A stretch of DNA of 64,000 nucleotides from Sulfuriferula sp. AH1 (GTDB lineage Bacteria; Pseudomonadota; Gammaproteobacteria; Burkholderiales; Sulfuriferulaceae). How positions within the stretch are numbered: the first letter of the stretch is position 1; the number at the start of each line of letters is the position of its first letter. The position numbers and the translations under genes were made by a program. This document shows positions 50,724 through 60,959 of the stretch, one piece after another. Below the pieces are notes generated by a model. The model saw only the letters and a list, made by a program, of their open reading frames with translations. It did not search any database and was not told the DNA's origin. The stretch spans positions 2,542,001-2,606,000 of the forward strand of contig NZ_CP021138.1 in the NCBI RefSeq assembly GCF_002162035.1. The letters are read 5' to 3'.

Positions 50724-50963
50724 TTACTTCACGGCATCTTGTGCTTTTTTGCTTTTGCGACGCAAACGCAGGCCTACCAGACCCAAGCCTATTGCCATCA
50801 TTGCCCAACTGTCAGCCTCGGGAACAGCAGCCACAGCACTATGATAATTAGGGTGGCCATCACTGTGGAGCGCATTAATGGATACCGCATTCGCATTCGC
50901 TGCAAAACCAAAAGATACAACAGCAGCCATACCCAGTAACTTGATAAGTTTATTCACTTTCAT
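50724..50963 (-). CDS. Small PEP-CTERM sorting domain protein
   Basis: Exported protein of 79 residues: a signal peptide (LLGMAAVVSFGFAANANA), a short mature part of about 20 residues, then a PEP-CTERM tail: VPEADSWAMM, a hydrophobic stretch GLGLVGL and the basic end RLRRKSKK. Exosortases cleave such tails and attach or release the protein at the surface. The exosortase gene is 9 kb away in the eps cluster. AGGAG precedes the ATG. The mature part is too short to suggest an enzymatic role. Confidence 0.88.
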   Translation of the reverse strand: MKVNKLIKLLGMAAVVSFGFAANANAVSINALHSDGHPNYHSAVAAVPEADSWAMMAIGLGLVGLRLRRKSKKAQDAVK

Positions 50964-51023
50964 TTCAGTACTCCTGTAAAAGACATCTCCTTAAATACCG
51001 ATTGGAGAAATTGAAAACACGAC

Positions 51024-51056
51024 AAACACTGTATCAAGACTATTGATACAGTGTTT
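51024..51056. promoter_or_regulatory. Perfect 14-bp dyad upstream of the PEP-CTERM gene at 50724
   Basis: Arms AAACACTGTATCAA and TTGATACAGTGTTT around GACTA. It has no T-run on either side, so it is more likely an operator or an activator site than a terminator. The 9-mer AACACTGTA in its left arm also occurs at 53370-53378 ahead of the eps operon. It lies in the 391-bp gap 50964-51354, which also holds a PEP-CTERM relic and a terminator. Confidence 0.5.
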
Positions 51057-51193
51057 ATCTTACATAATAACAAGAAAATATCAACCTACTAATTTCGCGT
51101 TTGGCAAAAAAGCAACACATCATGCCAACCTTCAATATTCAATTAAACGCTACGGCCGTTTATCAAATCCGCACTCCTTGTCCTTCGCCACAG

Positions 51194-51354: not shown

Positions 51355-51621
51355 TCAGGATTCAACCGAAGTCTTGCCTTTTTTACCACGCAATCGCAAA
51401 CCCACCAGACCCAACCCCAACACCATCATTGCCCAGGCGTCTGCCTCAGGCACTGCTGACGTGACAGACCATGTGCCCGAACCTTCGCCAACACCCGTCA
51501 CCACTACCGTGGTGCCATTCGGCCCGGTTTCGCTGACTGTTACGGCGCCCGCATTACCGGCAAAACCTAAAAATATCACCGCCGCCAAGATTAGCGACTG
51601 GGCTGTTTTATATACTTTCAT
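51355..51621 (-). CDS. Small PEP-CTERM sorting domain protein
   Basis: Exported protein of 88 residues with signal peptide (LILAAVIFLGFAGNAGA), a Thr/Val/Gly-rich mature segment (TVSETGPNGTTVVVTGVGEG) and a PEP-CTERM tail: VPEADAWAMM, hydrophobic GLGLVGL, basic RLRGKKGK. It is closely related in its tail to the gene at 50724. AAAGGAG precedes the ATG. A good sigma-54-type promoter lies upstream at 51708-51723. Confidence 0.88.
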   Translation of the reverse strand: MKVYKTAQSLILAAVIFLGFAGNAGAVTVSETGPNGTTVVVTGVGEGSGTWSVTSAVPEADAWAMMVLGLGLVGLRLRGKKGKTSVES

Positions 51622-51707
51622 CTGACACTCCTTTTCAGAATTTGTTGATTAACAAACAGCAGCGGAGCTTGTAAGACAAATACCAAACTTGCCCCATCCA
51701 TATATTA

Positions 51708-51723
51708 AGCATGCAATGTGCCA
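51708..51723 (-). promoter_or_regulatory. Sigma-54 (RpoN) type promoter of the PEP-CTERM gene at 51355
   Basis: On the minus strand TGGCACATTGCATGCT has the -24 GG and -12 GC separated by exactly ten bases and matches TGGCAC-N5-TTGCT with one mismatch (ATGC). Transcription would start near 51697, about 76 bases before the ATG. Confidence 0.55.
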
Positions 51724-51752: not shown

Positions 51753-53141
51753 TTAATAAGCCTGACTGTCCTTGAATACCAGCTTGATTGTCTTCAGCAT
51801 AATGGTGATATCCAGCCAAATTGACCAGTTCTTCAGGTAGCTGATATCGTGCAAAACACGCCCCTCCATTTTGTCTATCGTATCCGTTTCCCCCCGATAG
51901 CCATTGACTTGCGCCCATCCGGTAATACCGGGCTTCACCTTATGCCGCCACATATAACCCTGTATCAATTTACGGTAGTGTTCATTATGCGCAACGGCAT
52001 GCGGACGCGGACCGACAATACTCATGGAGCCCTGCAGCACATTGATCAGCTGGGGCAATTCATCCAGAGATGTTTTGCGCAGAATCGCACCAAGCCGGGT
52101 CACGCGCGCATCATTTTTGGTCGCCTGAGTGACTTTGTCGCCATCTTCACACACCGACATGGAACGGAATTTATAAACCCATATCTCCTCGCCATCCATC
52201 CCGTAACGACGCTGCTTGAAGAAAACCGGGCCTTTGGATGTCAGTTTCACCAGCGCAGCGATAATCACCATAATCGGCGCGATCATCAATAAAATCGTAC
52301 CCGACACCACCAGATCGAAAATCCGTTTATGCACTGCATTGATCCCCACCAGAGGGGATTCAAATACCGAAATGACCGGTACACCGTTGACGCTATCCAG
52401 CCGCGCCTGCACCAGATCGAAAATGAAAACATCCGGGACAAAATAAATGGAAGCGGTCGTATCCCGCAACGAATTCACCAACTCGACAATGCGCGACTGC
52501 TTGAGGATAGGCAGCGTAATGTAAACCAGATCGATATTCGATTTGGTCACATAATCAGCCACATCATCCAGCCCGCCCGCGACGATGGACAATAAACTCG
52601 GATCGCAACGGTCATCCAGCCTGTCATCGAAAAACGCATCCACACGCACCATCAGGCTACGCTGATGATGAATGCGGTCAGCCAGTTTGCAACCGAGGTC
52701 ATTTGCGCCGACGATGATGGCACGGCGGATTTTCCCGTCCTTGCGCAACGCTTCCAGATAGACACGCACTGCGAACTGACTGGCAAACAGCAGCACCGGG
52801 GTAAGCACTACCCAGACCATGAGCATCCGCCTGTCATAGGCATCACCCATTCCGGTAGCCATATCCAGAATGATCAAAATACCCACTGTTATCGTCCAGG
52901 CAATCAGCAAATTAACGATATGCCAACCGATTCTTGCCTGCTGGCCACGCAGTTCAAAGAACTCGAAACCGTCGAATACTTGCGAACCTATCAGGAATGC
53001 CAATACTCCCAGTACCAGGTGCATGCCATTGAATGGCGGCGACATAACCTCCACCGCGATAAGCAATGAAACGAAGATAACCAGGGGATTGACCAGACGC
53101 TTTGCCAGACTTAACGCAGGATGTTCATAACCACCAACCAT
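51753..53141 (-). CDS. epsB: EpsB-type undecaprenyl-phosphate glucose phosphotransferase
   Basis: Membrane priming enzyme of 462 residues that transfers a sugar phosphate, usually glucose-1-P, to undecaprenyl phosphate to begin a repeat unit. About four N-terminal membrane helices precede a Rossmann-like CoA-binding region ([17 protein letters not shown]), then another membrane segment and the C-terminal catalytic domain ([64 protein letters not shown]). It is divergent from the rest of the eps cluster across 390 bp. Confidence 0.9.
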
Positions 53142-53236
53142 AAATAATCCTTTTATATGAAAGATAGAGCGCTTGATTCAATTTTCCTAAAAATTCGTTA
53201 ACGCAACAGGATCAATCAGAATGCCAAGCAAAAAAC

Positions 53237-53258
53237 ATGACAATAAAATTTATGTCAT
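53237..53258. promoter_or_regulatory. ATGACA-N10-TGTCAT dyad in the epsB/manC divergent region
   Basis: Inverted 6-bp half-sites with an AT-rich 10-base centre, about 95 bases upstream of the epsB start. It may be an operator for the minus-strand gene; the binding protein is unknown. The surrounding gap 53142-53531 is strongly AT-rich. Confidence 0.3.
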
Positions 53259-53369
53259 CATAACAACGTAATCTGCGATTTATTATTACAACCAGTTCAT
53301 TGCACTTTTGCGTTCAGAATTTTTAAAGAATGGAACAGAATGGATATTGGAAAATATAAATGTAAGAAT

Positions 53370-53415
53370 AACACTGTAACATAACTACAGATATACTATT
53401 ACACATTTATAGTAT
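53370..53415. promoter_or_regulatory. Tandem dyads upstream of the eps RpoN promoter
   Basis: CTGTA-N7-TACAG (53374-53390) and ATACTAT-N9-ATAGTAT (53393-53415) lie 35-80 bases ahead of the -24 element at 53450. Sigma-54 activators bind such upstream sites. AACACTGTA at 53370-53378 is shared with the dyad at 51024. Confidence 0.4.
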
Positions 53416-53449: not shown

Positions 53450-53465
53450 AGGCACGATATTAGCT
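53450..53465 (+). promoter_or_regulatory. Sigma-54 (RpoN) type promoter of the eps operon
   Basis: AGGCACGATATTAGCT keeps the -24 GG and -12 GC with ten bases between and matches TGGCACG-N4-TTGCT at all but two positions. Transcription would start near 53476, about 56 bases before the manC ATG at 53532. Confidence 0.6.
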
Positions 53466-53531
53466 TGGTGAATAATCAAACCATGCTGCCAGTGCCAGTT
53501 TGCGAACCATGTTATGAAAGGAAATCAGCAC

Positions 53532-54959
53532 ATGCATCAAAAGCTCTACCCAGTCATCCTCTCTGGCGGCTCCGGCACAAGACTATGGCCTTTATCCCGC
53601 GCTGCACTACCCAAGCAATTGCTGCCTTTACTTACGGAGCAAACGCTATTCCAGGAAACCGTAAAACGCATTGTCGATTTACCCAATACCGCCGCACCGC
53701 TGATTATCTGCAATCAGGAACATCGTTTCATGATCGCCGAACAATTACGGGCGATGGACGTACGACCGAATGCCATAGTACTGGAACCGACGGGGCGCAA
53801 TACCGCGCCGGCGATCGCGATAGCCGCCCTGTCCATACAGCAGCAGGACCCCGATGCGCTGATGCTGGTGCTGCCAGCCGACCACCTGATCGGCGATGTA
53901 GCCGCCTTTCATCTCGCCGTGGCACACGCCGCCCAAATCGCCGCGCTAGGTTATCTTGCCACCTTCGGCATCGTCGCGAAAACACCCGACACCGGATTCG
54001 GCTATATCCGCCAGGGCGATGCGCTTCCCGGCCACACTCATGGCTATCAGGTGCGCGAATTTGTAGAAAAGCCCGACCTTGCAACCGCCGGACAATACGT
54101 TGCCAGCGGCGAATACTACTGGAATAGTGGCATGTTCCTGTTCAAGGTCAACGACATCATCGAAGAATTGCGCCGGCTGCGTCCCGACATCCTGGACGCA
54201 TGCTCAACTGCGCTCGACCAAGCCAAGAACGACCTGGATTTTATCCGTCTTGATCCGACAGCATTTACCGCTTGCCCATCAGAATCTATTGACTACGCCG
54301 TAATGGAAAGAACCGACAAGGCGGCAGTGGTTCCTGCTGACATCCAATGGAACGATATTGGCGCATGGAACTCCATATGGGAAGTAAGCGAAAAAGATGC
54401 CGCCAATAATGTCATTCGCGGCGACGTGATTATAGAAGATGCCAATCACAACCTTATCCGGGCCGAGTCCCGTCTGGTTGTGGCATTAGGAGTAGAAAAC
54501 CTGATGATTATCGAAACCGCTGATGCGATATTGATCGCTCCCAGAGACCGCGCTCAGGACGTCAAACTCATCGTGGACAAGCTCAAGGAACAGTCCCGCA
54601 GCGAGCATCTTTACCATGAACGGGTTTACCGGCCATGGGGCTGGTATGAGGGCATCGATGCCGGCAGCCGTTTCCAGGTCAAACGCATCATGGTCAAACC
54701 TGGCGCCAAACTGTCCCTGCAGATGCACCATCATCGTGCGGAACACTGGGTTGTCGTTTCAGGAACGGCGATGGTGGTGCGTGGCGAAGAAGAAATCATG
54801 CTCTGCGAAAACCAGTCAACCTATATTCCGCTCGGCAGCAAACATCGGCTGGAAAATCCGGGCAAAGTCCCCTTACATCTGATCGAAGTGCAATCCGGCA
54901 CCTATCTGGGCGAGGATGATATTGTTCGTTATGAAGACATATACCAACGTAATGCTTGA
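53532..54959 (+). CDS. Mannose-1-phosphate guanylyltransferase / mannose-6-phosphate isomerase
   Basis: Bifunctional enzyme of 475 residues making GDP-mannose for polysaccharide synthesis. The N-terminal nucleotidyltransferase has ILSGGSGTRLWPLSR and LPKQ; FVEKPD and YYWNSGMFLF are further family motifs. The C-terminal cupin phosphomannose isomerase has RPWGWYEGID, KPGAKLSLQMHHHRAEHW and a final EVQSGTYLGEDDI. Start at ATG 53532 is preferred because AAAGGA lies upstream; ATG 53514 would add six residues. First gene of the rightward eps operon, with an RpoN-type promoter; overlaps the next gene. Confidence 0.92.
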   Translation: MHQKLYPVILSGGSGTRLWPLSRAALPKQLLPLLTEQTLFQETVKRIVDLPNTAAPLIICNQEHRFMIAEQLRAMDVRPNAIVLEPTGRNTAPAIAIAALSIQQQDPDALMLVLPADHLIGDVAAFHLAVAHAAQIAALGYLATFGIVAKTPDTGFGYIRQGDALPGHTHGYQVREFVEKPDLATAGQYVASGEYYWNSGMFLFKVNDIIEELRRLRPDILDACSTALDQAKNDLDFIRLDPTAFTACPSESIDYAVMERTDKAAVVPADIQWNDIGAWNSIWEVSEKDAANNVIRGDVIIEDANHNLIRAESRLVVALGVENLMIIETADAILIAPRDRAQDVKLIVDKLKEQSRSEHLYHERVYRPWGWYEGIDAGSRFQVKRIMVKPGAKLSLQMHHHRAEHWVVVSGTAMVVRGEEEIMLCENQSTYIPLGSKHRLENPGKVPLHLIEVQSGTYLGEDDIVRYEDIYQRNA

Positions 54960-56157
54960 CAACTCCCCCCGGCCCAAAGATTCAAAGGGCTGGATACACC
55001 CTTTAAAGTGGCTATTTGCGCCCTGCCTCATCTGCACGAATTCGCTTGCTCATGCAGATTTGAACGACACTTTTTCGCCTTATGTGTCGGCGGCGTACAT
55101 GTACAACAGCAATCTGTTCCTGTTGCCGAATGACCAGGCCGCACTTGCCACACTCGGGACCACTTCTACCGCCGAGTCGTATCAGACCTATGCCGCAGGC
55201 GTCAAAATGAACTGGAAACTGGGCCGCCAATTCCTGACCGGCCACGTCGAAGCAAACCGGGTCAATTTTGACACTTACAATCAGCTGGATTACAGCGGGC
55301 ATAACTACGCTTTGAAATGGGATTGGCTGATCGGCGACATGCTGCAAGGCAATGTCGGCACCACCGAGAAACTGGCTCTCGCGCCTTTTACCTACACCCG
55401 CAAACCGCTCGCGAACATGATTACGACGCAAAGCGTATTCTTTAACGGTTACGTAAAGCTCGATAATCGCTGGCAACTCAAACTGGGCGCACAGAAAGAC
55501 CAGTCCAGCAATAGCGACATTACGCAAATATTCAATGACAGCAATATTGACACTTACAAGACGGGCTTCCGCTATCTGACACCAAAAGGCAGCAAAATTG
55601 ATTTCAATAGCACCGTCAGCAATGCGAGCTATCCAACCCAGCCAACCCCGGTCAACAGTTACACCCAGTACGATAACGGTATCGGGTTTGACTGGGTTGC
55701 GACCGGAAAAACCAGGATAGAAGGCAAGGTAAATTACACCAAACGCGATTACCCCAATGCGCAGCAGCAGAATTACTCCGGGGTAACCGGCAGAATTAGC
55801 GCGGACTGGTTCGCCACCGGCAAAACCAAATTCAATCTCGCCGTTTATCGCGACATCGGCAGCTATATTACCAACACATCCACCTACGATGTCACTCAGG
55901 GCGTATCGGCACGGGCGACCTGGACAGCCACCTCAAAAATCAGCGTTGATTTAAGCGCCCAGCGGGACAGCGTCGATTTCCTGAATACGCCGCATCGCGT
56001 GGATCAAGTCTCCTTATTGGATTTGGGCGTTACTTACACGATATTCCGCAATACCAGACTTAACTTTATCGCGGAAAAGGGTGTACGCAGCTCCAATATC
56101 GAGGGTAACAGCTATCGGTACGACAGCCTGATGGTAGGACTCAATCATGCATTCTGA
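54952..56157 (+). CDS. epsL: EpsL-type outer-membrane beta-barrel protein of the exosortase B / eps system
   Basis: Outer-membrane barrel-like protein of about 401 residues, with signal peptide (LKWLFAPCLICTNSLAHA) and alternating beta strands up to a final HAF. It belongs to the EpsL family found with exosortase B and methanolan-type clusters, thought to help export polysaccharide. The start is uncertain: 54952 overlaps the previous stop by 8 bases; in-frame ATGs at 54916 and 54931 are alternatives and none has a strong ribosome site. Confidence 0.75.
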   Translation: MLDNSPRPKDSKGWIHPLKWLFAPCLICTNSLAHADLNDTFSPYVSAAYMYNSNLFLLPNDQAALATLGTTSTAESYQTYAAGVKMNWKLGRQFLTGHVEANRVNFDTYNQLDYSGHNYALKWDWLIGDMLQGNVGTTEKLALAPFTYTRKPLANMITTQSVFFNGYVKLDNRWQLKLGAQKDQSSNSDITQIFNDSNIDTYKTGFRYLTPKGSKIDFNSTVSNASYPTQPTPVNSYTQYDNGIGFDWVATGKTRIEGKVNYTKRDYPNAQQQNYSGVTGRISADWFATGKTKFNLAVYRDIGSYITNTSTYDVTQGVSARATWTATSKISVDLSAQRDSVDFLNTPHRVDQVSLLDLGVTYTIFRNTRLNFIAEKGVRSSNIEGNSYRYDSLMVGLNHAF

Positions 56158-56257
56158 CAGACGATACGACAACACTGGCTTCTTAATCATCAAAACCAAT
56201 GAATCCTGTAAATCACTTGCAGGGCCTTACTGGACTTTTCGAAAGGCGGATCACATC

Positions 56258-57046
56258 ATGCGTAAACTATTTTATTTCCTGATTGTAATGTTGGCTGCAT
56301 TCGCGCTTCCCGCCCATGCCGATGAATACCGACTGGGTGTGGGCGACGTCGTGCACATTACGGTTTACGACCATCCAGACTTGCTGGTGGACGCAGCCCA
56401 AATCGATGAGGACGGCAAAATCGCCGTTCCGCTGCTGGGCTCGGTACAGATAGCGGGGCTCACTGCCAGCGCAGCGCAAAAACGTATTGCGCAAGGGCTG
56501 GAGTCGGGCGGATTCATCGTCAAACCCAATGTCAATCTGGTCGTGAAGGAATACCGCAGCAAACTGATATCGATACTGGGGCAGGTCAACAAACCCGGCA
56601 AATACGCCCTTGAATCCACCAGCACGATCACCGATCTGCTCGCACAGGCTGGCGGCATCAGCTCGCTCGGCTCGGATACGGTCGTCCTGGTCCACAAAAA
56701 CGGCAATCAGCTCGAACAGACCAAGATAGACACCCTGTCGTTATTTAACGATGGCCAGTTGGCCATGAATTCCACCATCCACGGCGGCGATATCATTTAT
56801 GTACCCCGTGCGGAAGTATTCTATATCTACGGCGAAGTACAGCATCCCGGTTCATTCCGTCTGCAGAAGGACATGAACCTCATGCAGGCAATCGCCATGG
56901 GGGGCGGCATCACCCTGCGTGGCACCGAGCGGGGTGCACAGATCCGCCGCAAAGACAAGGACGGAAAGACCATCACCTTGCCAGCGACTGAGGATACGCA
57001 AATCCTCCCTGACGACGTCGTTTATATTAAGGAAAGCCTGTTCTAA
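56258..57046 (+). CDS. epsE: EpsE, Wza-like polysaccharide export protein
   Basis: Periplasmic/outer-membrane export protein of 262 residues with signal peptide (FYFLIVMLAAFALPAHA). The Poly_export domain (YRLGVGDVVHITVYDHPDL) is followed by SLBB domains (ILGQVNKPGKYALEST and IYGEVQHPGSFRLQKD). No lipobox cysteine is seen, unlike classical Wza. ATG 56258 has AAAGGCGG upstream and starts the signal peptide; the frame from 56147 would add 37 unlikely residues. Confidence 0.9.
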   Translation: MRKLFYFLIVMLAAFALPAHADEYRLGVGDVVHITVYDHPDLLVDAAQIDEDGKIAVPLLGSVQIAGLTASAAQKRIAQGLESGGFIVKPNVNLVVKEYRSKLISILGQVNKPGKYALESTSTITDLLAQAGGISSLGSDTVVLVHKNGNQLEQTKIDTLSLFNDGQLAMNSTIHGGDIIYVPRAEVFYIYGEVQHPGSFRLQKDMNLMQAIAMGGGITLRGTERGAQIRRKDKDGKTITLPATEDTQILPDDVVYIKESLF

Positions 57047-57069: not shown

Positions 57070-58473
57070 ATGAACATAATCAGTTTTTTCAGAGTGGTAT
57101 GGGCGCGTAAAACCGTGTTGTTGATCACGATAGCGCTCACTGTGCTGATAGCGGTCGCCGCAAGATTGATATTGCCGCTCCGCTATGAAGCAACAGCCAG
57201 CGTCATCGTCGACTTCAAACAGCCCGACACGATCTCGGGCCCCGCCGCCAGCACCCCTTCTTCCGATCAAATGACCAGCTATATCGCGACGCAGGTTGAT
57301 GTGCTCTCGAGCCACAATGTCGCACTCAAGGTGGTGGACGATCTCAAGCTGGCGCAAGACCCGGCTCTGCACAAGAAATTTGTCGATGAAGCCGACGGCA
57401 AAGGCGATATTCGTGACTGGATCGCAGAGTTGCTGCTCAGAGGTCTCTCCGTCACGCCTTCCCGGCAAAGCAATCTGATCGATGTCGCATACAAATCGAC
57501 TGACCCTGAGTCGGCCATGGTCATCGCCAATGCGTTTGTCAAAGCCTACATCCAGACCAATCTCGACTTGCAGACGATACCGGCCATGCAGGCCAACAAA
57601 TGGTATCAGTCCCAGCTAAATGAATTACGGTCGCAGCTAATAGCCGCACAGAAACGACTATCCGACTATCAGCAAAGCAAAGGCATAGTCGTCGTCGACG
57701 AACGGCTGGACGTAGAAAGCGCGCGCCTCAACGATATCGGTAGCCAATTGGCCGCCGCGCAAGACCAGACCTACGACAGCACATCGCGCAACCGCCACTC
57801 CGGCGACCAGTTAGCCGACGTTATGAATAATCCGGTCATACAGTCGCTCAAAACCGATCTTGCCAGAAATCAGGCGAAACTCGATCAATTATCGAAAAGC
57901 GTCGGTGTGAATCACCCCGATTACCAGCGAGCCCGCGCCGAAATAAATACCTTGCGTGAACAGATCGCGCGGGAAACCCGCAATGCACAGGAAAGCGTCA
58001 ATACCTCGATGCGCGTAGCCCAGCAACGTGAAGCCGCATTACGCGAATCACTGGCCGCGCAAAAACAGAAGCTGCTGGCACTCAAGCAAAACCGCGATGC
58101 AGGTGCAGTGCTGGTACAGGATATCGCCAACGCGCAGAAAGCCTATGACCTCGCATTACAGCGGGCGACCGAAACCCGCATGACCAGCCAGGCCAGCCAG
58201 ACCAACATCTCACTGCTCAACCCGGCAAAAATCCCCACTGAACCGTCCAGCAGAAGCCTGGCATTCGTGATCGTATTTGCCCTGTTCCTCGGTACGTTCC
58301 TTGGATTGGCGCTTACTTTTATCGCAGAATTTCTGGATCGCCGCATCCGTTCCGAAACCGATTTGACAGACGTATTAGGCCTGCCGGTACTAGTCACACT
58401 CAACGCCATCGCCCCCTCAAAACACAAGGGATTGCCGGGTTTATCCAATCGTCAGAGACCACAGCTGAACTAG
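57070..58473 (+). CDS. epsF: EpsF, polysaccharide chain-length determinant (Wzz-type)
   Basis: Inner-membrane protein of 467 residues. Two membrane segments (LLITIALTVLIAVAARLIL near residue 20 and AFVIVFALFLGTFLGLALTF near 400) frame a periplasmic Wzz domain with long coiled-coil helices (roughly 170-370). The PxxP region between GGS-like and second helix is NPAKIPTEPSS. It would work with EpsG as a split PCP-2a co-polymerase. Confidence 0.9.
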   Translation: MNIISFFRVVWARKTVLLITIALTVLIAVAARLILPLRYEATASVIVDFKQPDTISGPAASTPSSDQMTSYIATQVDVLSSHNVALKVVDDLKLAQDPALHKKFVDEADGKGDIRDWIAELLLRGLSVTPSRQSNLIDVAYKSTDPESAMVIANAFVKAYIQTNLDLQTIPAMQANKWYQSQLNELRSQLIAAQKRLSDYQQSKGIVVVDERLDVESARLNDIGSQLAAAQDQTYDSTSRNRHSGDQLADVMNNPVIQSLKTDLARNQAKLDQLSKSVGVNHPDYQRARAEINTLREQIARETRNAQESVNTSMRVAQQREAALRESLAAQKQKLLALKQNRDAGAVLVQDIANAQKAYDLALQRATETRMTSQASQTNISLLNPAKIPTEPSSRSLAFVIVFALFLGTFLGLALTFIAEFLDRRIRSETDLTDVLGLPVLVTLNAIAPSKHKGLPGLSNRQRPQLN

Positions 58474-58491: not shown

Positions 58492-59358
58492 ATGAATACC
58501 CCGCAACTATATATCCAGCCGCCCGCTTCCGCGGACGATTCAATAGGCAACCTGCTGTTGCAGGCAGGAAAAATCCATATCACGGATATCCAGAGCATAT
58601 TGAGCCTGCAAAACAATGAATCGATCAGATTCGGCGAGGCTGCAATAAAACTGGGGCTGGTAACCGCAGACGACATCAGCCGCATCCTGGCCAACCAATA
58701 CGATTACACCTACCTCGCGCCGGGAGAGGGCGGCTTCAGCCCGGAACTGATATGCGCCTATCGCCCCTTCACCGAGCCTGCCGAAAAGATACGCATGCTG
58801 CGCAACCAGTTACTTTCCCGCTGGTTCAACAACGGCAAAAAGATGCTCTCCCTGCTAGGCGCCAGCCGCAATGTCGGTACCAGTTATCTCGCCGCGAATC
58901 TGGCGGTTGCTTTCGCCCAGCTCGGCCAGCGCACCTTGCTGATCGATGCCGATATGCACACACCACGGCAACACCGGATATTCAACCTGGACAACCGCGC
59001 AGGCTTGGCCAGCATGCTGGCGGAACGCACCGACATGTCGAGCATCGTCAAGCTGGACGCGTTATCGGGATTATCCGTGCTGCCCGCCGGCGCGATACCG
59101 CCGAACCCGGCTGAAATCATCGCACGCGGCTTGCGCTCCAAATTACTCACCGAGCTGAGCCCGCATTACGATGTGATTTTATTCGACACTCCGGCCTTTA
59201 ACGAACACGCCGAAAGCGCAAATCTGGCCATTATCAGCGAAGGCAGCGTCCTGGTTGCACGTCAGGATCTCACCAAGCACCGCGATCTTGAACGCATACG
59301 CGACACCCTGAACGGCACCAGCGCACAATTGATCGGCACAGTACTCAATCAGGTGTAA
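58492..59358 (+). CDS. epsG: EpsG, BY-kinase-like ATPase with degenerate Walker A
   Basis: Cytoplasmic MinD/BY-kinase-type protein of 288 residues, partner of EpsF. Residues 1-80 resemble the N-terminal domain of type II secretion ATPases (MshEN-like: QAGKIHITDIQSILSLQ, LVTADDISRIL). The kinase-like domain has IDADM at 151-155 and VILFDTPAF. The Walker A region reads GASRNVGTS at 123-131, lacking the Lys of GKS and the Arg known from other EpsG proteins. No C-terminal tyrosine cluster is visible. Kinase activity is doubtful; a structural role is possible. Confidence 0.85.
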   Translation: MNTPQLYIQPPASADDSIGNLLLQAGKIHITDIQSILSLQNNESIRFGEAAIKLGLVTADDISRILANQYDYTYLAPGEGGFSPELICAYRPFTEPAEKIRMLRNQLLSRWFNNGKKMLSLLGASRNVGTSYLAANLAVAFAQLGQRTLLIDADMHTPRQHRIFNLDNRAGLASMLAERTDMSSIVKLDALSGLSVLPAGAIPPNPAEIIARGLRSKLLTELSPHYDVILFDTPAFNEHAESANLAIISEGSVLVARQDLTKHRDLERIRDTLNGTSAQLIGTVLNQV

Positions 59359-59361
59359 TGC

Positions 59362-60246
59362 ATGTCTTCAGATAGCACCTACATGTCATCTCCTCCCGCC
59401 AACGGGTATCCTGCCCTGCTGACATGGATGCCGGTGATCGCCGGGCTGGCGGTGATATTGCTGCCGATCTTTTACGGGCTGGCCCGCGGTCTTTGGACGA
59501 CTGAAGAGCAAGGCCACGGTCCCCTTATCCTTGCGGTGTCGCTCTATTATTTCTGGCAACGTCGCGACGTATTCATTCAGCCTGCCAAATCGACTTCGCC
59601 TGTTCTCGGCGGCGTGATCCTGGCTATCGGCCTATTGTTTTATGCATTAGGCAAATCCCAGACCATTTACATTTTCGAAATCGGCTCGTTATTGCCGATA
59701 CTGGCGGGTATGCTGCTCGTCATGCGCGGCGTTACGGGGCTGCGCAGTTTCTGGTTCCCCATCCTGTTCCTGGTGTTCATGATCCCGCTACCCGGTCCGC
59801 TGATCGACACACTGACCGGGCCATTGAAACAATACGTTTCCATTGTGGTCGAGAATATCCTGTATCACCTGGGCTTCCCCATCGCCCGCAACGGCGTGGT
59901 GCTCTCCATCGGTTATTACCAGCTTCTGGTAGCCGACGCCTGTTCCGGCCTGAATTCGATGTTTTCACTCAGCGCACTCGGCGTCTTGTATGTGTATCTG
60001 ATGCAATACCGCAACTGGTTGAGAAACGGCCTGATTTTCGCCGGCATCCTGCCCATCGCCTTTGCCGCCAACGTAATACGCGTCATCGTCATTACCCTGG
60101 TAACCTATTTCCGGGGTGATGAAGCCGGGCAAGGCTTTATTCACGGCTTTGCCGGCATCGTGCTGTTTATAGTCGCCCTGCTCAGCCTCATGCTGTGGGA
60201 TTGGGTTCTGGGTCTGCTGTTCAAACAAGGCGGGCATACGGCATGA
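59362..60246 (+). CDS. xrtB: Exosortase B (XrtB), PEP-CTERM processing transpeptidase
   Basis: Integral membrane cysteine protease/transpeptidase of 294 residues with about eight hydrophobic segments. The catalytic triad is visible: Cys194 in VADACSGLNS, Arg240 in NVIRVIVI and His261 in FIHGFAG. It sits between EpsG and EpsI, the order of methanolan-type eps clusters, where it was called EpsH. The likely substrates here are the small PEP-CTERM proteins at 50724 and 51355. Its stop overlaps the epsI start. Confidence 0.92.
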   Translation: MSSDSTYMSSPPANGYPALLTWMPVIAGLAVILLPIFYGLARGLWTTEEQGHGPLILAVSLYYFWQRRDVFIQPAKSTSPVLGGVILAIGLLFYALGKSQTIYIFEIGSLLPILAGMLLVMRGVTGLRSFWFPILFLVFMIPLPGPLIDTLTGPLKQYVSIVVENILYHLGFPIARNGVVLSIGYYQLLVADACSGLNSMFSLSALGVLYVYLMQYRNWLRNGLIFAGILPIAFAANVIRVIVITLVTYFRGDEAGQGFIHGFAGIVLFIVALLSLMLWDWVLGLLFKQGGHTA

Positions 60247-60959
60247 ACGCGATTCCTCTCAAATCCTGGTTAACAGGGCTGGCCATGATTGCGGCAGCCT
60301 TATTGGCGGCAATGCTGACGCCGACCGAAATGGCGGCGGACGTCAATCCACCGATCAATCTGAAAACCCTGATACCCAAACAGTTTGGCGATTGGCAGCA
60401 GGTACAGGATCTGGACATCATTTCCGGTTCCAACGATACCAACCCGAACGACAAAAACACCTTATCCGAAAAGCTGTATGCGCAAACCCTGGCACGCACA
60501 TATGTCAACGCGCGCGGGGAGCAGATCATGTTGACGATCGCATACGGCAAGGATCAGCGCAACGGCATGCAAGTGCATAAACCGGAAGCCTGCTATCCCG
60601 CCCAGGGATTCAAAATAACCCAGCACTCGACTGGCGTATTAAACGTAGCCGCAACAACCCGGATCCCGGTCGTCCACATGGTGGCAGTGCAACGCGCCAG
60701 AATAGAGCCGATTACCTACTGGACAACGGTAGGGGATCAGATCGCAGTCGAAAGCCTTAAATGGAAATTCGCGCGTTTCAAATACGGATTAACCGGCAAA
60801 GTGCCCGACGGCCTGCTGTTCCGAGTGTCATCGATAGACCCCGATTCAACGCATGCATTCGCCGCTCAGGCCGCCTTTATCCGCACACTCCTCAACGCCC
60901 TTGATTCATCCGCACGCGAACGCATCATGGGGCACCCTTCCGCAATGACTACATCATGA
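60243..60959 (+). CDS. epsI: EpsI, exosortase-associated protein
   Basis: Protein of 238 residues with an N-terminal membrane anchor (WLTGLAMIAAALLAAML) and a periplasmic EpsI (DUF3485) domain. The family motif HKPEACYPAQGF contains conserved Cys117. EpsI is found next to or fused to exosortases and supports their function or the polysaccharide export. ATG 60243 overlaps the xrtB stop by four bases; it likewise overlaps the flippase gene by four. Confidence 0.9.
   Translation: MNAIPLKSWLTGLAMIAAALLAAMLTPTEMAADVNPPINLKTLIPKQFGDWQQVQDLDIISGSNDTNPNDKNTLSEKLYAQTLARTYVNARGEQIMLTIAYGKDQRNGMQVHKPEACYPAQGFKITQHSTGVLNVAATTRIPVVHMVAVQRARIEPITYWTTVGDQIAVESLKWKFARFKYGLTGKVPDGLLFRVSSIDPDSTHAFAAQAAFIRTLLNALDSSARERIMGHPSAMTTS

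Follow-up and report, generated by a model that had tools for sequence, protein, structure and literature searches.

A predicted sigma-54 promoter ahead of the exosortase B polysaccharide operon of Sulfuriferula sp. AH1

The sulfur oxidiser Sulfuriferula sp. AH1 carries a polysaccharide and exosortase operon in the order manC-epsL-epsE-epsF-epsG-xrtB-epsI, of the XrtB (exosortase B) type, and the spacer ahead of manC contains a short -24/-12 element. This raises the question of whether the operon is transcribed with the sigma factor RpoN (sigma-54) and, if so, which activator would open its promoter. The locus lies in a stretch of 64,000 nucleotides (contig NZ_CP021138.1, positions 2,542,001 to 2,606,000), here called the window, and coordinates refer to positions in the window unless a genome is named. 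The features of the operon, of the divergent wcaJ gene and of the spacer between them are listed with the bit score and cut-off of the model that supports each assignment.

51753-53141, minus strand: wcaJ, undecaprenyl-phosphate glucose phosphotransferase, divergent from the operon (TIGR03023, 526.4 bits, cut-off 410.75)
53228-53243, minus strand: top conserved block of the spacer, TTGTCATGTTTTTTGC, sigma-54-like toward wcaJ (10.6 bits; GT for GG at -24)
53361-53378, plus strand: TGTAAGAATAACACTGTA block, proposed activator site or else a second, sigma-70-type promoter (TGTAAGA in all spacers, with a regular gap to the site below)
53450-53465, plus strand: predicted -24/-12 (sigma-54) promoter for manC-eps-xrtB, from which transcription is predicted to start at 53476
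53532-54959, plus strand: manC, mannose-1-phosphate guanylyltransferase/mannose-6-phosphate isomerase, first gene of the operon (TIGR01479, 722.5 bits, cut-off 372.95)
54916-56157, plus strand: epsL, XrtB-associated outer membrane protein (TIGR03014, 358.8 bits, cut-off 275)
56147-57046, plus strand: epsE, polysaccharide export (TIGR03028, 285.1 bits, cut-off 262.65)
57070-58473, plus strand: epsF, chain length determinant (TIGR03017, 510.4 bits, cut-off 422.75)
58492-59358, plus strand: epsG-like tyrosine kinase (TIGR03029, 299.0 bits, slightly below the cut-off of 313.8)
59362-60246, plus strand: xrtB, exosortase B (TIGR03113, 344.3 bits, cut-off 275)
60195-60959, plus strand: epsI, B type (NF045609, 269.3 bits, cut-off 220)

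The longest open reading frame of manC starts at 53514; the start at 53532 is preceded by AAGGA, and the manC matches in two other Sulfuriferula loci (L071 and L072) begin at the first residue of that start. The N-terminus of the EpsG-like kinase resembles a cyclic-di-GMP-binding MshE-type domain (36.8 bits, slightly below the cut-off of 38).

The 16 bases of the element, AGGCACGATATTAGCT, differ from the textbook sequence TGGCACGNNNNTTGCW by two mismatches. As the initial annotation described, GG (53451-53452) and GC (53463-53464) are separated by ten bases and the core reads GGCACG; the placement ahead of manC also agrees with that description, with 66 nt between the end of the site and the ATG at 53532. 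Pattern counts gave the element little distinction. Allowing up to three mismatches, the window contained 128 matches compared to 149 expected from shuffled sequence, that is, no excess over chance, while across the genome GGCACGN4TNGC was found 67 times against 39 for the reversed control. Scored with a sigma-54 matrix of informal weights, not those of a published table, the site at 53450 obtained 13.2 of a possible 19.2 bits and ranked fifth in the window. Only 2 of the 14 window sites with at least 11.5 bits fell in non-coding sequence, as defined by a crude set of open reading frames leaving 5438 non-coding bases: the site at 53450 and one in front of a small PEP-CTERM gene (51708, minus strand). 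When the intergenic region itself was shuffled, 2 of 400 shuffles reached the score of the 53450 site (p = 0.005). The genome encodes RpoN (PF04552, 221.1 bits, single match). Five other genomic copies of GGCACGN4TTAGC were fetched as possible members of a regulon and were rejected: a single transposase-type gene region, present twice, accounts for two, and the remaining three are identical stretches that by eye belong to 16S rRNA genes. By its pattern alone the element is unremarkable, and its weight comes from comparison.

Some match to EpsI was present in 12 of the 18 genomes of the genus. We fetched seven loci; with that of AH1 included, wcaJ and the eps genes are divergently arranged in six (AH1, L070, L071, L072, L074 and L075), while L073 and L076, which have a different layout and no like site, were left out of the footprint. 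A correctly spaced -24/-12 site occupies the aligned place in five of the six wcaJ-divergent loci:

AH1: AGGCACGATATTAGCT
L071: TGGCACGGTATTAGCT
L072: TGGCATGATATTAGCT
L070: TGGCATAGATTTAGCT
L075: TGGCATGAAATTCGCT

Against 400 shuffles of each spacer, these sites gave p = 0.005, 0, 0, 0.0025 and 0.0075, respectively. The same place in L074 reads GGGCACGCTCAGCTTAGC, in which the spacing is wrong and the correct site is lost; the best site of that spacer (12.9 bits, p = 0.015) lies elsewhere. In the five-locus alignment, where 16-column blocks have a mean identity of 0.34, the three best blocks were 53228-53243 (0.85), 53451-53466, which is the sigma-54 site (0.81), and 53356-53371, which contains TGTAAGA (0.74). 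The sigma-54 promoter proposed for this operon in a sulfur oxidiser thus gains support, since rpoN is present and the site is kept in four other Sulfuriferula genomes.

The initial annotation had also pointed to upstream dyads as possible activator sites. This part did not survive comparison, since the GACA-N10-TGTC dyad was found in one of the six loci, that of AH1 itself, and the conserved upstream part is instead TGTAAGA at 53361. This heptamer was present in all six eps spacers, with 0.06-0.12 occurrences expected in each, and its gap to the sigma-54 site was 82, 73, 75, 78 and 72 nt in the five promoter-bearing loci. The distance from site to gene varied from 35 nt (L071) to 296 nt (L075, measured to the longest epsL open reading frame; measured to where the tblastn match begins, it is 364 nt). 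Because the two elements keep their distance to each other and not to the gene, they are best read as one promoter, and the layout, judged from sequence, is that of a sigma-54 promoter with a putative upstream activator site. The extended pattern TGTAAGN8TGTA was not specific, since six genomes gave 21 matches and the reversed control gave 12, and it was rejected as a genome-wide regulon marker; the AH1 genome has five matches, two of them at the eps locus, and its control has three.

The most conserved block of all, 53228-53243, seems to be wcaJ's, since its distance to TGTAAGA varies between 65 and 132 nt. Its consensus over five loci, TTGTCATR-N3-TYTTGC, faces wcaJ. Owing to this TGTCAT block, three loci also have a scoring site on the antisense strand of their eps spacer (p = 0.0125, 0.0075 and 0.0075).

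Two small PEP-CTERM genes sit between ttcA and wcaJ, each with a sequence of interest upstream:

50724-50963, minus strand: small PEP-CTERM gene of 79 aa, VPEADSWAMMAIGLGLVGLRLRRK (PF07589, 28.2 bits, cut-off 20.7)
51047-51064, minus strand: TGTAAGATAAACACTGTA, repeating the upstream block of eps; the 79-aa gene starts 101 nt downstream
51355-51621, minus strand: small PEP-CTERM gene of 88 aa, VPEADAWAMMVLGLGLVGLRLRGKK (PF07589, 23.8 bits, cut-off 20.7)
51708-51723, minus strand: sigma-54-like site TGGCACATTGCATGCT, 86 nt before the 88-aa gene (14.2 bits; reached by 3 of 400 shuffles, p = 0.0075)

Both proteins have a C-terminal PEP-like motif (tails VPEADSWAMM/VPEADAWAMM), a hydrophobic stretch and a basic end. 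They scored 30.8 and 28.3 with NF035944 (cut-off 35, not reached), and no protein of the genome exceeded the cut-off of 16 of TIGR02595 (best 13.7). Upstream of the 79-aa gene there was no correctly spaced sigma-54 site (best 0.1 bits); the nearest candidate has 11 bases instead of 10 between GG and GC. We counted 18 such mini PEP-CTERM genes in the six genus loci (two in AH1, five in L070, four in L071, four in L072, one in L074 and two in L075), encoding proteins of about 65 to 110 aa that extend scarcely beyond a signal peptide and a sorting signal. A sense-strand site of at least 11 bits was found within 200 nt upstream of 10 of the 18. Its typical sequence is TGGCATATNNNNTGCT, and its distance to the gene is 75-105 nt in nine cases and 179 nt in the tenth; on the antisense strand none of the 18 had such a site. 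These ten sites are not independent, since the L070 paralogues are near-identical and hold sequence in common, and eight genes, the 79-aa gene of AH1 included, have no site at this threshold.

In minimum-energy folds without a shuffle control, a GGGGC...GCTCC hairpin opens the predicted leader at the predicted +1 in 6 of the 10 folded mini PEP-CTERM genes of the sigma-54 type (51624-51697, minus strand, in AH1). The leader of the 79-aa gene contains a perfect 14-bp hairpin, AAACACTGTATCAA/TTGATACAGTGTTT (about 51020-51053, minus strand, -17.3 kcal/mol), which overlaps the TGTAAGA...TGTA copy.

Taken together, we consider it probable that 53450-53465 is the RpoN promoter of the XrtB operon, served by an activator other than PrsR acting at or near TGTAAGA, and that some of the mini PEP-CTERM genes are driven along with it; that the element itself is a real, RpoN-dependent promoter is very likely. 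We infer that RpoN polymerase would bind at the -24/-12 core and wait there in a closed complex, until DNA looping brings in an enhancer-binding activator, bound some 75 nt upstream in the region of TGTAAGA (53361-53378), to open it. Transcription would start near 53476 and drive manC, and by extension the whole operon from manC to epsI would be read from the same promoter. Some of the adjoining mini PEP-CTERM genes are probably under the same sigma factor, and we propose that this sharing would let the polymer, the export machine, the exosortase and its small substrates be made together, the small proteins presumably being sorted by XrtB. On this comparison, a wider regulon taking in the mini PEP-CTERM genes makes a good hypothesis. 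The fuller version, in which Sulfuriferula has a PrsR-independent RpoN regulon with an activator new to PEP-CTERM systems, sites resembling TGTAAGA-N7-TGTA, and as members the XrtB operon and a fast-changing mini PEP-CTERM array, is plausible, and we lean slightly against it.

The initial annotation had assigned control to the PrsK/PrsR pair. In the AH1 genome the best match to the PrsR model (TIGR02915) scored 380.6 against a cut-off of 502.6, and the best match to the PrsK model (TIGR02916) 91.9 against 300, the PrsK search having covered this genome only. Since the named pair was not found, another activator should act, and the genome encodes nine sigma-54 activators. One possible reading, put forward tentatively, is that eps is switched on from the TGTAAGA block by one of the general activators present in the genus (L036, L034 or L042). 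NtrC and NifA both exceed their model cut-offs in the genome. With general site patterns for three regulators, NtrC and GlrR sites were found in none of the six loci, and NifA-type sites in three, in no shared place and not in AH1; these patterns thus gave no consistent match, which leaves L036. This AtoC/PilR-like activator, with an adjoining kinase gene, has relatives in each of the other promoter-bearing genomes checked for it, G002, G017 and G015 (79, 89 and 81% identical), and the GlrR-like L034 has relatives in G002, G016 and G017. Against this reading, genomes that lack an XrtB eps locus, such as G006 and G012, have relatives of L036 and L034 as well, and the case for L036 is one of elimination; on that footing it is the least-excluded candidate.

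The GAF-type activator L039 followed the distribution of eps across the genus, with G003 as the exception, yet it is flanked by sites of its own neighbours and was rejected as the eps regulator. It lies between two divergent gene groups (L191 8082-11429; G000:C1, about 257-260 kb) with the strong sigma-54 sites TGGCACGATTGCTGCT and TGGCATAGTGCTTGCA, a candidate local regulon; these sites score 16.7 and 15.3 bits, so L039 is more likely a local regulator.

It is improbable that the orphan activator L038 (G000:C1:2662696-2664156), with a receiver, an AAA domain and a Fis-type helix-turn-helix, stands in for PrsR. The PrsR model is its top NCBIfam match, at 351.0 bits, with the cut-off of 502.6 not reached and ntrC next at 350.5. 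Its counterparts are 93% identical in G016 and 92% in G017, and in G017 a TGTAAGN8TGTA match immediately precedes the gene. On the other side, the stretch upstream of the gene can also be read as an ordinary sigma-70 promoter, the copy in AH1 is TGTAGG, and L038 is common regardless of XrtB, being present in 108 of 300 genomes of the order and in 32 of 57 XrtB genomes (hand count). We set it aside because it was missing from the promoter-bearing G002 at an E-value of 1e-125.

We also consider it unlikely that the -24/-12 match is a chance likeness and that the operon is transcribed from a sigma-70 promoter, perhaps at TGTAAGA itself. The lack of overall enrichment of the sigma-54 pattern in window and genome would fit such an account, as would the sigma-70 readings at hand: TGTAAGAT could serve as a -10 region, and upstream of the 79-aa gene TTGATA precedes TAAGAT by 16 nt. 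A sigma-70 promoter, however, would have no need of a second block 75 nt downstream with an exact GG-N10-GC, and a chance match would not be expected to be kept in five loci at a fixed distance from the TGTAAGA block.

PrsR exists in other members of the genus (G001, G003 and G011), and exceeded its cut-off in 28 of the 59 XrtB- or EpsI-bearing genomes searched. It was over the cut-off in none of the five promoter-bearing genomes (G000, G002, G016, G017 and G015, the last being only 64% complete), and in the PrsR-bearing G011 the eps site is lost from the aligned place. The motif linked to PrsR ends in TTTACA, which was absent from both strands of the AH1 eps spacer and occurred in one of the six spacers overall. 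In the PrsR-bearing genomes, at least five PEP-CTERM genes (L227, L228, L229, L231 and L235) have TTTACA 94-98 nt before a sigma-54 site. Since PrsR is absent from all five promoter-bearing genomes, the PrsK/PrsR part of the earlier reading fails, and the model scores indicate that this mechanism is unavailable in AH1. We therefore give almost no credence to RpoN control of eps with PrsK/PrsR, even with PrsR-linked sigma-54 promoters of PEP-CTERM genes described elsewhere (available portion of PMC1569441).

The eps promoter appears to be a trait of Sulfuriferula and not of XrtB loci generally. Exosortase B was found in 57 of 300 genomes of the order. Among 55 XrtB loci outside the genus, with crude gene calls, a site of at least 11.5 bits preceded an eps-type gene in only three, so the idea of a general XrtB-operon trait was rejected; such a site preceded a PEP-CTERM gene in four of the 55 (L086, L092, L095 and L111). 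The three eps-type cases are:

L089: site 43 nt before wcaJ
L092: site 270 nt before the xrtB open reading frame
L101: site 413 nt before epsE

Haft et al. (2006) predicted a sigma-54 and enhancer arrangement with PrsR, with a mean spacer of 62.8 for the TTTACA arrangement (in the available portion of PMC1569441). The PrsR-bearing Sulfuriferula genomes show this arrangement with a longer spacer of 94-98 nt. The AH1 promoter resembles those promoters, as far as the same portion of PMC1569441 goes, in combining a sigma-54 motif with an upstream motif, in lying about 70 nt before the gene, and in having PEP-CTERM targets; the targets there are mostly single genes with long upstream regions, which we count as a likeness. 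It differs in that the published motif ends in TTTACA and occurs in genomes with PrsR/PrsK/PrsT, whereas in AH1 PrsR and PrsK were not found and the block is TGTAAGA, and in that the AH1 promoter precedes the polysaccharide/exosortase operon itself.

For the dependence of PEP-CTERM systems on RpoN with PrsK/PrsR, which the initial annotation gave as reported for floc-forming Zoogloea, published support is narrower than that annotation had it. According to the sections available of PMC9850573, the PEP-CTERM gene pepA of Aquincola tertiaricarbonis is RpoN1-dependent, with a mapped start and TGGCAC/CTGCTT boxes, while PrsK-PrsR control there is a prediction and prsK complementation failed. The rpoN1 mutant still made exopolysaccharide, so that in Aquincola the RpoN1 target is a PEP-CTERM gene, whereas in AH1 the eps operon itself bears the site. 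The methanolan eps locus of Methylobacillus sp. 12S, also of the XrtB type, shares with AH1 the set epsE-F-G-H(xrtB)-I (available text of PMC1569441 and PMC9850573). In Desulfovibrio the response regulator DVUA0057 is encoded in an eps operon and binds before PEP-CTERM genes (available text of PMC3333781); no regulator gene was seen inside the AH1 cluster. Judged by titles and the beginnings of abstracts, open-licence PMC papers on exosortase, XrtB and Zoogloea contained no report of RpoN control of an XrtB operon, and open-licence PMC papers contained nothing on Sulfuriferula together with exosortase.

RpoN control of PEP-CTERM genes has been linked with PrsK/PrsR since 2006. If our reading is true, sigma-54 logic would act on polymer and exosortase genes without that pair, and the link between RpoN and the extracellular matrix would predate the regulator or have been re-made more often than it. 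In one culturable sulfur oxidiser there are now a few named sites and nine candidate activators to work with, and the mini PEP-CTERM array adjoining xrtB supplies candidate substrates for exosortase B, whose substrates are poorly known. On the 39-kb second replicon of the same genome (L132; G000:C2:1-6000), we also observed a mercury-resistance region with 99.8% identity over 87% of the query to an Enterobacter hormaechei plasmid.
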